Assembly (NCBI RefSeq): GCF_003670115.1
Contig: NZ_QQTY01000002.1
Span: 372,001 to 436,000 of the forward strand
Reading direction: 5' to 3'
Length of the DNA: 64,000 bases
Source of the DNA: Natronorubrum halophilum
GTDB taxonomy: Archaea; Halobacteriota; Halobacteria; Halobacteriales; Natrialbaceae
The position numbers and the translations under genes were made by a program. This document shows, piece after piece, positions 48,892 to 52,780 of the stretch. The first letter of the stretch is position 1. Each line of letters begins with the position of its first letter. The notes below the pieces were generated by a model. That model did no database searches. It saw nothing but the letters and a program-made list of their open reading frames with translations, and was not told the DNA's origin.

Positions 48892-49371
48892 TCACTCATC
48901 GGCGGCCGATTCTCGAGCGCCGACGACGGCGACGACGTTCCGAACGTAGCGCATGCTCGTCGCGATCGACATGATGCCGTCCATCAGCGCCTGCTGACTG
49001 GCTCCGTCCGGATAGATCCGGTACTCGACTTGCACCGTCTCCGCACGCCGAAGCTGACAGGACTCTCCGTCCGGATCGAGAAACGTGTAGAAACCCGGCG
49101 TCGCCGCCAGCATCGGCCCGACGTACTCGAGGAGTTCGCCGCGCCGCTGATCGTCTCGAAGCAAATCCTTCGTCCGCTCGGTATCGAACCCGCTCCGACC
49201 GACGATTCGAACGGGGCCGAACTCGTCTTCTTTGATCACGTGGACCGGAAGCTGTGAGAGTTCGACCTGCACGTTGAACTCGGTGTCCTCGTCGGAATGG
49301 GTCGTCACGCGACGGATCGCCGTCTCGTCCAGCCAGTGGCGGACCTGCGTCTCGCTAATGTGTCTTGTCAT
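48892..49371 (-). CDS. DUF2299/chaperone-like protein at the end of the acidic cluster
   Basis: 159 aa, soluble. MTRHISETQVRHWLDETAIRRVTTHSDEDTEFNVQVEL, followed by VHVIKEDEFGPVRIVGRSGFD and an alpha/beta layout ending VRNVVAVVGA. It weakly resembles archaeal DUF2299 proteins and type III secretion chaperone-like folds, but this is not secure. Unlike its upstream neighbours it is not low complexity, so it may be the chaperone or regulator of the cluster. It starts 4 bases after the stop of the upstream gene. Confidence 0.65.
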   Translation of the reverse strand: MTRHISETQVRHWLDETAIRRVTTHSDEDTEFNVQVELSQLPVHVIKEDEFGPVRIVGRSGFDTERTKDLLRDDQRRGELLEYVGPMLAATPGFYTFLDPDGESCQLRRAETVQVEYRIYPDGASQQALMDGIMSIATSMRYVRNVVAVVGARESAADE

Positions 49372-49375
49372 CTGA

Positions 49376-50281
49376 TCAGTGTTTGTCGGGCATCGTCGAA
49401 TACCGCGCAGTGCCTTTCATATCCGCGCGTTCCGAGGGTGGTGGTGCCATCGTCGAGTAGTGGGTCACGCCGGCAGTTGCGGTGCCGCGGTCCCGATCAC
49501 CGCCGAGTCCGCCCCCGATCAATCCGTCGTCTTCCTCCTCGTCAGCTTCCGCGTCGGCCGGTTCCACATCGCCGCCCTCGTCGGGTTCATCCGTCGTCCC
49601 GTCATCGCTTCCGACGGCACCGGCACTCGCCTCCTCGAGTCGCTGCTGGAGCCCCTCGAGATCGTCACCGACCCCCTCGAACGAGGACTCCGCCGCCGAC
49701 CGTAGCTTGTCGCCGAGGTCGGCCGTCTCGCCCGCCGTGTCAGCGTCGGAGTCGCCCTCGGCCGTCTCTTCGCCGTCGTCGCTCTCGATGACGTCGCCGA
49801 GTCCGGTGGCCTCACTGACTGTTTCGGCGGCCGACGCGACCGCCTCTCGAGCGCCGCCGTCGCCGTCGCTTCCGGACTCGTCCGCCTTAGAACCGTTCGA
49901 CTCAGCGCCGTCGGCGACCGACTCCCGTAACCGGCCGGTCGCGTCCTCGAGAGCGCGTTCGTCGTCCCGTTCGGCGAGTTTCGAGAGCTTCAACAGTCGC
50001 TGGAGGTCCTCGACTTGCTCCGGATCGCCCCGAGAAATCGCCGCCGGAATCGAGTCCGGTTCGGTGCCGTCCGGCAACGTATCTAGGCCGAGCGCCTCGA
50101 GCAGTTCGTCCGGCTCCGCGTCCTCGAGCAATTCGCTCGCCCGTCGAGCGGTCTCGATGAGGTCCGTCCGGGCCGACTCGGTGTCTGCGTCGTCCGATTC
50201 GGTCGTGGCGGCGAGCGACCTACTGGATGCGTCGGCGTCACCGAGTACCTCGCGTATCTGTTCGTGTAGTTTCTGGCTCAT
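49376..50281 (-). CDS. Acidic low-complexity protein with C-terminal YSTM pair
   Basis: 301 aa, no signal peptide. Residues 1-120 are helical (MSQKLHEQIREVLGDADASSRSL; LIETARRASELLEDAEPDELLEALGLDTLP; VEDLQRLLKLSKLAERDDERALE). The middle (about 120-265) is Asp/Glu/Ser/Gly-rich and probably disordered. The end departs in composition and holds THYSTMAPPP (273-282) and ARYSTMPDKH (292-301), a repeated motif 19 residues apart that looks like a recognition or targeting peptide. Family not recognised. Fourth gene of the five-gene run. Confidence 0.7.
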   Translation of the reverse strand: MSQKLHEQIREVLGDADASSRSLAATTESDDADTESARTDLIETARRASELLEDAEPDELLEALGLDTLPDGTEPDSIPAAISRGDPEQVEDLQRLLKLSKLAERDDERALEDATGRLRESVADGAESNGSKADESGSDGDGGAREAVASAAETVSEATGLGDVIESDDGEETAEGDSDADTAGETADLGDKLRSAAESSFEGVGDDLEGLQQRLEEASAGAVGSDDGTTDEPDEGGDVEPADAEADEEEDDGLIGGGLGGDRDRGTATAGVTHYSTMAPPPSERADMKGTARYSTMPDKH

Positions 50282-50361
50282 TTGTGATCCCCGTTGTCAC
50301 CGCGGTAGCGTCCTCGAACCCCGATTCTCGAGTGTTACCCCGGGATGGCGATCCGATTCGG

Positions 50362-51105
50362 TTACTCCGCTTCCGCTTCCGCCTCCGATTCCTCGTCCGC
50401 CACCGTCTCGATGATCTCTTCGGTCATCTCTTCCCGGCTGAGATTCGCCTTCACGCCGACGTCCTTGGCGACCGACTGCAGATCCTGGTAGGACATCACG
50501 CCGAGGAAATCCTCGAGGGTATCCGCTCGGAGGTCCTCGATGTCCGCAGCCGACGGCTCGGTCTCCTCGTCCGATTCGTTCTCGTCCGTATCCTCGGCCT
50601 CGGACTCCGTCTCGTCGCCGTCGGCGTCATCGGCGTCCTCCTCGTCGCTCGCTTCGTCTTCGGCTTCACGTTCCGCGTCGTCCGAATCTCCCTCGTCTTC
50701 GGCATCTGACTCCTCCGCGTCGCCCTCGTCTTCATCGCCCTCGAGAAGCCCCTCGAGGCTGCTTCCTTCGGTAACGTTCTGGGCCAGCGACTGGACTGAC
50801 TCCTTGGCTTCGTTGTCCTCGACCGTTTGCCTGACGGCGTCGCGGATCGCCGTCGCGAGATCCGACCGTATCTCCGTGCGGTCTTTCCCCGCCTCGATCC
50901 CGTCCGAGATCGTCTCGTGGATCGCACGACCGATCGCGGCACCCAGTTCGCGACCGACCTGTTCGCCGAACTCGCGGCCGACCGCGGCACCGACTTCGCC
51001 GCCGTCGATGCTGTCCTCGATGCTTCCGTCGCCGAGCATATCGGCCACGTCGATCTGATCGCTCACCTCCTGGGATACCAGCTCTTTCAGCCCGGACTCA
51101 CTCAT
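50362..51105 (-). CDS. Acidic glycine-zipper protein with SAP/Rho-N-like C-terminus
   Basis: 247 aa from ATG 51105, chosen over a GTG at 51114 because GAGGTGA at 51111-51117 is well spaced for it. IDVADMLGDGSIEDSIDGGE (18-37) leads into a helix with Gly at 35, 39, 43, 47, 51, 55 and 59, an exact i+4 series. A helical stretch to about 110 is followed by a Glu/Asp/Ala/Ser region. Residues about 196-235 (TLEDFLGVMSYQDLQSVAKDVGV, REEMTEEIIETV) look like a SAP or Rho N-terminal helix-extended-loop-helix domain, which binds nucleic acid in other proteins. Paralogous to the neighbouring product upstream. Confidence 0.72.
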   Translation of the reverse strand: MSESGLKELVSQEVSDQIDVADMLGDGSIEDSIDGGEVGAAVGREFGEQVGRELGAAIGRAIHETISDGIEAGKDRTEIRSDLATAIRDAVRQTVEDNEAKESVQSLAQNVTEGSSLEGLLEGDEDEGDAEESDAEDEGDSDDAEREAEDEASDEEDADDADGDETESEAEDTDENESDEETEPSAADIEDLRADTLEDFLGVMSYQDLQSVAKDVGVKANLSREEMTEEIIETVADEESEAEAEAE

Positions 51106-51165
51106 CGCGCTCACCTCGAGGCGGAATTGGCGACCCGTCGTCGGAGGTCGGACTTTGCGACATGG

Positions 51166-51624
51166 TTATTCCTCCGCGTCTTCGTCTTCTCTCTCGTCGT
51201 CTCCGTTCTCGGACTCCGCCTCGTCCGATTCCTCCTCCGCGTCGTCGCCTGTCTCGTCTTCGTCCTCGCTCTCGGCTTCGTCGGCGTCTTCTTCGGTTTC
51301 CTCGTCGGCATCGGACTCTTCCGACTCCTCGTCCGCCGCTTCATCTGCATCGCCTCCTTCGTCCGCAGAGTCCTCGGCCTTTTCCTCCTCGTCGGTCCCG
51401 AACAGTTCGTCGACGACCATATCGCCCACCGTCCGCCCGATGGACTCGCCGACCTTCCGTCCGACGAGCGCGCCGATCTGGCCGCCGAGCACTTCCCCGA
51501 GCGGTTGGTCTCCGTCGATCTCGTCTTCCCACTGGGTTCCCTCGATCAGGTCGTCGACGTCGATGTTCTCGGTGATCTTTTCGTAATCGATGCGCTGCGT
51601 GACTGATTGGGATTCTTCACTCAT
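51166..51624 (-). CDS. Acidic glycine-zipper protein, short paralogue
   Basis: 152 aa. IDYEKITENIDVDDLIEGTQ and WEDEIDGDQPLGE precede a helix with Gly at 43, 47, 51, 55, 59, 63 and 67, every fourth residue. The order and motif IDV-x-D-[LM]-[IL] ... ED-x-IDG match the following gene's product, so they are paralogues. The C-terminal half (from about 77) is almost entirely Glu, Asp, Ala and Ser. GGAGG at 51636-51640, inside the end of the upstream gene, serves as ribosome binding site. No signal peptide and no long hydrophobic helix. Confidence 0.72.
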   Translation of the reverse strand: MSEESQSVTQRIDYEKITENIDVDDLIEGTQWEDEIDGDQPLGEVLGGQIGALVGRKVGESIGRTVGDMVVDELFGTDEEEKAEDSADEGGDADEAADEESEESDADEETEEDADEAESEDEDETGDDAEEESDEAESENGDDEREDEDAEE

Positions 51625-51626
51625 GC

Positions 51627-52637
51627 TTAGGCTGCCTCCTGGGATGTCGCGTCCGACTGCTCGCTCGATCCGTCCTGCTCTCCGTCCGGTTCTAACTGCT
51701 CGATCAACTGTTTGATCACCTGACTGACGACCGCCGCTACGAGATCTTCGATCGGGAAGCCCGGAATGAGCCCTAGCAGCTTCTCTTTCAGCCAGCTACC
51801 GGCGGCGGAGATCCGGCCGGGGGACTCATCGGCCGCTTCGTCGTCCGCGTCTTCCGTCTCGGACTCGTCGTCCGCCCCCTCCTCGGCCTCCGCTTCGTCA
51901 CCCTCGTCGGGAGCTTCTTCGCTCTCTCCACCGCCGATACCCAGAAGCTTGCTGAGCAGTTCCTTCGGCTTGCTCACCAGACCGCTGAGGAGTTCTTTCG
52001 GTTTCTCGAGCAGTCCGCCGAGCATCTCTTTTGCCTTCCCCGGAAGGCTCTTGAGCACCTCCAGTGGCTTCTTCAGCAGTGACGTTACCTTGTCCAGCAC
52101 GGCGCTGGGGCCATCCAGCAGCCCCGTCACCGCGGACAACAGGTTCCCGAGCAGGTTGTTTTCGCCCGGACGGGCCGAGACGTCGAGCGTAACCGGGTTC
52201 AGGTTCACCTCGAGGCCGAGCACGTCGAGGAACAGCCCGTCGAGATCGAGGTGGAGGACGCCGGACGCGTCGTCGCCCTCGTACACGTCTTCGGCGTCGT
52301 CGGCGTGACCCTCTTCGCGGTCGTCTTCGGCGAGATCACCGGTGTCGTCTCGTCCCTCCTCCCCATCCTCAGCGTCGTCCTCGACATCCGCTTCTTCAGC
52401 CTCCTCTCCCTCGTTCTCGGATTCTTCCGCGTCGTCTCCGGACGCTTCGTCAGCTTCGGATGCCGATTCCTCGTCCTCGTCGCTTTCCTCGGACAGCTCC
52501 GCCTGACCGCCGTCAGTCAGCACCCTGCGGTCCGTTCGATCCGCTTGCTCGCCGTCGTGACGATGGCTCGAGGAGTCTCCGATTGCTACGGAATCAGAAC
52601 ATTCCTCGGAGCCATCATCTCCTAGTCCCGTTGTCAT
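51627..52637 (-). CDS. Acidic protein with LLGLEVNL-type domain and amphipathic KPxELL repeats
   Basis: 336 aa, first gene of the five-gene run. Residues 1-125 are extremely acidic. Residues about 128-175 (LHLDLDGLFLDVLGLEVNL, then NPVTLDVSARPGENNLLGNL and LSAVTGLLDG) match a hydrophobic domain of unknown function that I know from hypothetical proteins of bacteria and haloarchaea. Residues 180-233 are amphipathic repeats: LLKKPLEVLKSL, LLEKPKELLSGL, LVSKPKELLSKLLG. A second acidic stretch precedes a C-terminal amphipathic helix (SWLKEKLLGLIPGFPIEDLV ... VIKQLIEQL). No signal peptide, which suggests a cytoplasmic or membrane-surface protein. Confidence 0.72.
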   Translation of the reverse strand: MTTGLGDDGSEECSDSVAIGDSSSHRHDGEQADRTDRRVLTDGGQAELSEESDEDEESASEADEASGDDAEESENEGEEAEEADVEDDAEDGEEGRDDTGDLAEDDREEGHADDAEDVYEGDDASGVLHLDLDGLFLDVLGLEVNLNPVTLDVSARPGENNLLGNLLSAVTGLLDGPSAVLDKVTSLLKKPLEVLKSLPGKAKEMLGGLLEKPKELLSGLVSKPKELLSKLLGIGGGESEEAPDEGDEAEAEEGADDESETEDADDEAADESPGRISAAGSWLKEKLLGLIPGFPIEDLVAAVVSQVIKQLIEQLEPDGEQDGSSEQSDATSQEAA

Positions 52638-52780
52638 TATACGCGAAAAACGACGAGAGTTAGCGTTGTGGTAATTGCCCTTGCGTGTGCGACTATCGCG
52701 GGACCGGACACTCGAGACCGAACGACGCCGCGGACGACGGAGCAGAGAAGCCGCTCGAACCGAGCCGACTGCGGAGTTCG

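Follow-up and report, generated by a model that had tools for sequence, protein, structure and literature searches.

We found that a five-gene cluster at positions 48892-52637 of the window, a 64,000-nucleotide stretch of the Natronorubrum halophilum genome, is probably an accessory gas-vesicle operon unlinked from the gas-vesicle (gvp) genes themselves, in which the first three genes (g1-g3) would supply a coat or cap, the fourth (g4) a GvpI-like protein, and the fifth (g5) a chaperone. This explanation follows from the co-inheritance of g1 with gvp genes in all 130 genomes that carry g1, from the presence of relatives of the cluster inside gvp clusters of other families, and from the paralogy of g4 with GvpI. 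That the cluster is linked to the gas-vesicle system in some way is almost certain. In the best reading, g1-g4 make up an accessory module that does not depend on GvpC and to which g5 is added as an optional chaperone; the most likely role of the module is surface coating or size control of the vesicle shell.

The five open reading frames are co-directional on the minus strand, and their spacings from g1 to g5 (2, 60, 80 and 4 bases) agree with the original prediction for this DNA. The acidic character that it assigned to the products is also borne out: Asp and Glu together make up 30, 45, 35, 28 and 18 percent of g1 to g5, respectively, and the pI of g1-g4 is 4.05. No signal peptide was evident by inspection in any of the five products. 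When g5 was used as the query, the order g1-g2-g3-g4-g5 was found in 12 other Natrialbaceae loci, most of them with the same flanking genes as well, including those of Natronorubrum halalkaliphilum, N. texcoconense, Haloterrigena salina, Natrinema zhouii, N. ejinorense, N. versiforme, Natronococcus pandeyae and Halopiger djelfimassiliensis. The cluster is under purifying selection (dN/dS of its genes, 0.12-0.47). Searches of Pfam and NCBIfam with the products gave no family above the cut-off, g1, g2, g3 and g5 did not match the gvp families of these databases, and a description of g1-g3 was not found among open-licence PubMed Central papers. Upstream of g1, a block that is strongly conserved across Natrialbaceae genera (AGTCGCACACGCAAGGGCAATTACCACAACGC, 52663-52694, minus strand) is probably the promoter region of the operon. 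A degenerate pattern common to the upstream regions of g1 and gvpA, which was built from these two sites, occurs genome-wide only at them. When 367 background upstream regions served as the reference in an unbiased alignment test, a promoter element common to g1 and gvpA was not significant, and the claim of a shared promoter was therefore dropped.

The distribution of the cluster was analyzed in one sample of the class Halobacteria (391 genomes), in which g1 was searched for with a profile of its LLGL domain (see below) and the GvpA family with PF00741. The g1 gene was detected in 130 genomes (88 Natrialbaceae and 42 from other families) and PF00741 in 162, which include all 130 of the g1-positive genomes; none of the 229 gvp-negative genomes had g1. 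The association is strong (Fisher p 2e-73), with the reservation that the test counts genomes, which share descent and are not independent events. All ten gvp-negative Natrialbaceae likewise have no g1, and chance is disfavoured because g1 and gvp are jointly absent in four genera. A broader g1 model applied to the 32 gvp-positive genomes without g1 gave nothing credible. A point against the gas-vesicle explanation is that several species of this group have been reported as Vac-negative (PMC4390858).

In distant families, g1 often has gvpA, O, F, G, H, I, J, K, L and M as neighbours. These were recognised from their similarity to Halobacterium pNRC100 and to the vac-cluster proteins of the host, which had been checked with Pfam. 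In several families other than Natrialbaceae, relatives of g1-g3 are part of the gvp cluster or adjoin it, and in the public gvp cluster of Halocatena salina they are annotated as 'hypothetical'. Two arrangements were observed: in the accessory operon of several families, g1-g2 stand between gvpH and gvpI (L081, L083, L096, L098 and L116), and in other clusters, g1 and g3 stand in the gvpA-gvpO operon, at the usual place of gvpC/gvpN (L072-L074, L076 and L195). The module is unlinked from gvp in those Natrialbaceae loci that were studied in detail, with exceptions such as L095. Between gvpO and g1 of two other families (L074:8779-9117 and L072:8339-8692), a small protein is encoded that has two CxxC pairs like those of zinc ribbons and is not among the described Gvp proteins; in the vac cluster of Haladaptatus halobius (L115:5778-6584), gvpO is present a second time, along with a gene resembling g2.

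These results bear on two alternatives to a gas-vesicle role. The module could be a hitch-hiker, inherited with one vac lineage without any specific gas-vesicle job, and the strong phylogenetic structure of the data, in which most Natrialbaceae have the module, is in line with this. However, the module is unlinked from gvp in the detailed Natrialbaceae loci, apart from exceptions such as L095, and yet is absent from gvp-negative genomes, and the dN/dS values given above also argue against passive inheritance, which we regard as very improbable. The other alternative is that the genes form a cytoplasmic particle or granule system of their own, with no relation to gas vesicles. This agrees with the unlinked position of the module in the genome of the window and with the lack of Pfam or NCBIfam families above the cut-off for g1-g3. 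It is largely refuted by the 130/130 co-occurrence with gvp, the location in gvp clusters elsewhere and the homology of g4 to GvpI, and is hardly credible. The original prediction had presented the cluster as a candidate undescribed intracellular assembly system; a conserved, non-enzymatic multi-gene unit that would serve a cytoplasmic assembly, with gas-vesicle-like logic, was indeed found, but the same three observations contradict the idea of a separate system standing on its own.

According to reviews, haloarchaea have 14 gvp genes, gvpACNO and gvpDEFGHIJKLM. The module resembles this vac set in that it occurs in the same genomes, and often in the same cluster, and in the homology between g4 and GvpI; it differs in that g1-g3 and g5 are outside the 14 described genes and in that it is unlinked from gvpA in the window. 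The vac cluster of the host (genome G000, 4.67 Mb) is on another contig than g1-g5 (G000:C5, ~8.1-15 kb, locus L092), and has gvpO, gvpN and gvpA on one strand and gvpF, G, H, I, J, K, L and M on the opposite strand; gvpC and gvpD/E are missing from it. The host gvpN directly follows gvpA with nothing between them, and g1, being on the other contig, does not occupy a position between these genes. The host genome contains four PF00741 genes, and a second, solitary gvpA without gvp neighbours was observed at L093:10014-10301 (G000:C5, ~391 kb). The host gvpO (L092:8155-8691) has an N-terminal cysteine/histidine-rich DUF5763 domain (PF19067, E 6e-18).

GvpC is the usual strengthening protein of the gas-vesicle wall. 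When GvpC was called from PF05465 repeats at E<1e-8, it was found in 14 of the 391 genomes, all of them gvp-positive and all without g1; in other words, the repeats occur in 0/130 g1-positive and 14/32 other gvp-positive genomes (p 9e-12), and the exclusion also holds outside Natrialbaceae (p 3e-7). Three weak single-repeat matches (G150, G175 and G250) were left out of this count; G250 is the sole g1-positive genome among them, and its repeat (E 7e-4) is elsewhere in the genome from g1. No PF05465 match was obtained in the host genome. Within one genus (g53), a GvpC-type (L193) and a g1-type (L195) vac cluster occur in different species. Both g1 and a recognised GvpC are missing from about 17 gvp-positive genomes, several of which retain a long GvpI; the module is thus not strictly required. 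One genome counted in neither class, G014 of Natrialbaceae, encodes between gvpA and gvpN a 416-residue protein with GvpC-like repeats that PF05465 missed (L184:9684-10934). GvpN (TIGR02640, E<=1e-20) was detected in 14/14 GvpC genomes and in 15 of the 54 g1-positive genomes tested. The other 39 gave no GvpN at this threshold; a 2024 review describes GvpN in all gas-vesicle clusters. Because the host genome holds both GvpN and g1, the module is not simply a replacement of GvpN. The exclusion could also reflect two vac lineages, one with gvpC, D and E and a short basic GvpI and the other without them and with a long acidic GvpI, rather than substitution. That g1-g4 substitute for GvpC in a coat role is suggested by the exclusion, and we give it slightly less than even weight.

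The g1 protein (336 aa; 51627-52637, minus strand) has an acidic disordered N-terminus, an LLGL domain, 11-residue amphipathic repeats and a C-terminal amphipathic helix. The LLGL domain (VLHLDLDGLFLDVLGLEVNL...LLGNLLSAVTGLLDG; 52110-52259, minus strand), expected from the original prediction as an LLGLEVNL-type hydrophobic domain, is conserved and serves as the family marker (alignments A1/A2 and the genome search), with the near-invariant pattern L-x-G-L...L-L-G-L-E-V...L-D-V-S-A...G-N-L-L-x-x-V-x-G-L-L-D. The amphipathic KPxELL repeats (51942-52079, minus strand), likewise anticipated, are spaced by exactly 11 residues, and their amphipathicity at 98.5 degrees per residue was equalled in 3/2000 shuffles. 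Runs of them are confined to most Natrialbaceae orthologues, where the copy number varies, and distant g1 proteins have no such repeats; the C-terminal helix (FPIEDLVAAVVSQVIKQLIEQLE; 51690-51758, minus strand) is retained in the distant relatives. Similarly to GvpC, g1 is acidic and has, in most Natrialbaceae orthologues, a variable number of amphipathic helical repeats, and it occupies genomes without GvpC. However, g1 has no PF05465 repeat or sequence similarity to GvpC, has the LLGL domain, and lacks the repeats in its distant members; its repeat is 11 residues long, in contrast to 32-39 in Halobacterium and 33 in cyanobacteria. In cyanobacterial GvpC, the 33-residue repeats form amphipathic helices that cover the GvpA shell (PMC10185304), and their length is three times that of the g1 repeat, which is an analogy and not homology. 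Structure prediction of g1 was poor (pLDDT 59), and the model was not used for a fold search because of this low confidence. The LLGL domain was rejected as a homologue of GvpA/J/M (hhalign probability 0.1). No g1 was found outside haloarchaea in a sample of the phylum. Searches of plasmid, phage and viral collections were likewise without a match, a result that is uninformative because the low-complexity filter probably masks the g1 sequence; the searches did not pick up a plasmid copy in L116.

The g2 protein (152 aa; 51166-51624, minus strand) consists of a glycine-zipper segment and an acidic tail. In g3 (50362-51105, minus strand; ATG at the 51105 end, with a GTG also at 51114), a g2-related glycine-zipper N-terminus is followed by an acidic linker and a conserved C-terminal domain. 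The profile of the g2 N-terminus also matches g3, which supports the proposed paralogy of the two. The C-terminal domain of g3 (DLRADTLEDFLGVMSYQDLQSVAKDVGVKANLSREEM...; 50410-50556, minus strand) shows ~85 percent identity among close relatives. Its conservation upholds part of the earlier description of a SAP/Rho-N-like end; the label itself is weak, since the match to Pfam SAP_new25 (E 0.05) is below the cut-off. The resemblance of this domain to the C-terminus of the GvpC-like protein of G014 was suggestive by eye and not significant.

As judged from profile comparison, g4 (301 aa; 49376-50281, minus strand) is a GvpI paralogue whose N-terminal part is long and acidic. Its tail (THYSTMAPPPSERADMKGTARYSTMPDKH; 49379-49465, minus strand), in which the original prediction had seen a YSTM pair, is conserved and, from comparison with Halobacterium GvpI, corresponds to the twin-motif signature of GvpI. 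Halobacterium GvpI has the motifs NPAAHSTMPP...NSHSTVPKTPKYS...RLYGQRL, the host gvpI and its relatives carry NPTAxSTxP...RHSTVP...RIYGRRF, and the counterpart in g4 is THYSTMAPPPSERADMKGTARYSTMP; a twin ST[MV]P tail is thus common to all three. By hhalign, g4 matched the proteins at the gvpI position with 99.4 percent probability (E 1e-21), and these matched Halobacterium GvpI with 97.8 percent (E 1e-12). In contrast to Halobacterium salinarum GvpI (pI 10.04), g4 (pI 4.05) has no basic N-terminal region and lacks the terminal YGRRF element, and as an additional copy it stands outside the vac cluster; the own gvpI of the host (P0007) is of the long acidic kind. The gvpH-gvpJ slot of the host belongs to P0007, and for this reason we regard g4 as a paralogue and not as GvpI itself. 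Where the module is embedded in a vac cluster, there is a single GvpI-type gene, and where it is apart from or beside the cluster, g4 is an extra copy.

An alternative explanation is that g1-g4 form an assembly or length-control module, acting early together with GvpF/H/I/L, with g4 as a second GvpI, and leaving the mature shell. GvpI limits the length of vesicles and has GvpH, F and L as binding partners (PMC7688916), and such a role would also suit the position of g1-g2 between gvpH and gvpI in several families and the chaperone-like g5. However, other clusters place g1 and g3 in the gvpA-gvpO operon at the usual gvpC/gvpN site, and the exclusion of GvpC suggests a structural role; we consider early assembly a less probable, but still sizeable, alternative to the coat or cap.

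The g5 protein (159 aa; 48892-49371, minus strand) was predicted from its sequence to be a compact chaperone-like protein, and its AlphaFold2 model, which is confident (pLDDT 88), has a CesT-like chaperone fold. Foldseek retrieved 3cxj, an uncharacterised Methanothermobacter protein (TM 0.73, E 3e-8), and CesT-type secretion chaperones (TM ~0.5; Tir-CesT complex, E 1e-3). The likeness to class I type III secretion chaperones (CesT and Spa15) and 3cxj is in the fold, whereas the identity is ~18 percent or less, and a secretion system is not implied. Over its full length, g5 matched DUF2299 with 19.4 bits (E 9.5e-4), below the Pfam gathering score of 22.8 bits, and is at most a distant relative of this family. 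Of the 391 genomes, 54, all gvp-positive, have a close orthologue of g5 (match above 200 bits), whether linked to g1 or not, and many g1-positive genomes have no g5; g5 is an optional partner of the module. In Natrinema altunense, g5 (L041:10001-10353) is broken by a deletion and stops, and g1-g4 are intact.

The composition of the module would also fit condensates and self-association, and acidic low-complexity and glycine-zipper proteins might cluster or tether finished vesicles by analogy with GvpU/GvpT of Bacillus megaterium; such clustering has been reported in Bacillota, and no counterpart is described in other groups (PMC10903477). However, Bacillus belongs to a different phylum, homology to GvpU/T was not found, and vesicle clustering leaves the exclusion of GvpC unexplained, so that we think it quite unlikely. 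In the favoured coat-or-cap explanation, g1, with its acidic tail, amphipathic helices and hydrophobic LLGL domain, would associate with the glycine-zipper proteins g2 and g3 on the cytoplasmic side of the GvpA shell. They would coat or cap the shell and take over the strengthening and shaping role of GvpC, g4 would limit vesicle length through its twin STM tail as GvpI does, and g5, where present, might hold these disordered proteins in solution until assembly. Deletion phenotypes illustrate the two roles: vesicles are weak and irregular without GvpC and extremely long without GvpI (PMC7688916). A bolder reading, which we think unlikely, is that most haloarchaeal vac regions build a second kind of GvpA shell, completed by g1-g4 in the absence of GvpC and, in many cases, of a recognisable GvpN, with independently evolved coating and sizing; the particles would then possibly not be classical flotation vesicles.

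A set of components missing from the described gvp list may thus sit elsewhere in the genome, and g1-g4 may give a means other than GvpC of engineering gas vesicles for use as acoustic reporters. Reviews note that Natrialbaceae have vac regions without gvpC and gvpDE and assign them no function; the module makes it testable whether these regions function when g1-g4 are provided.
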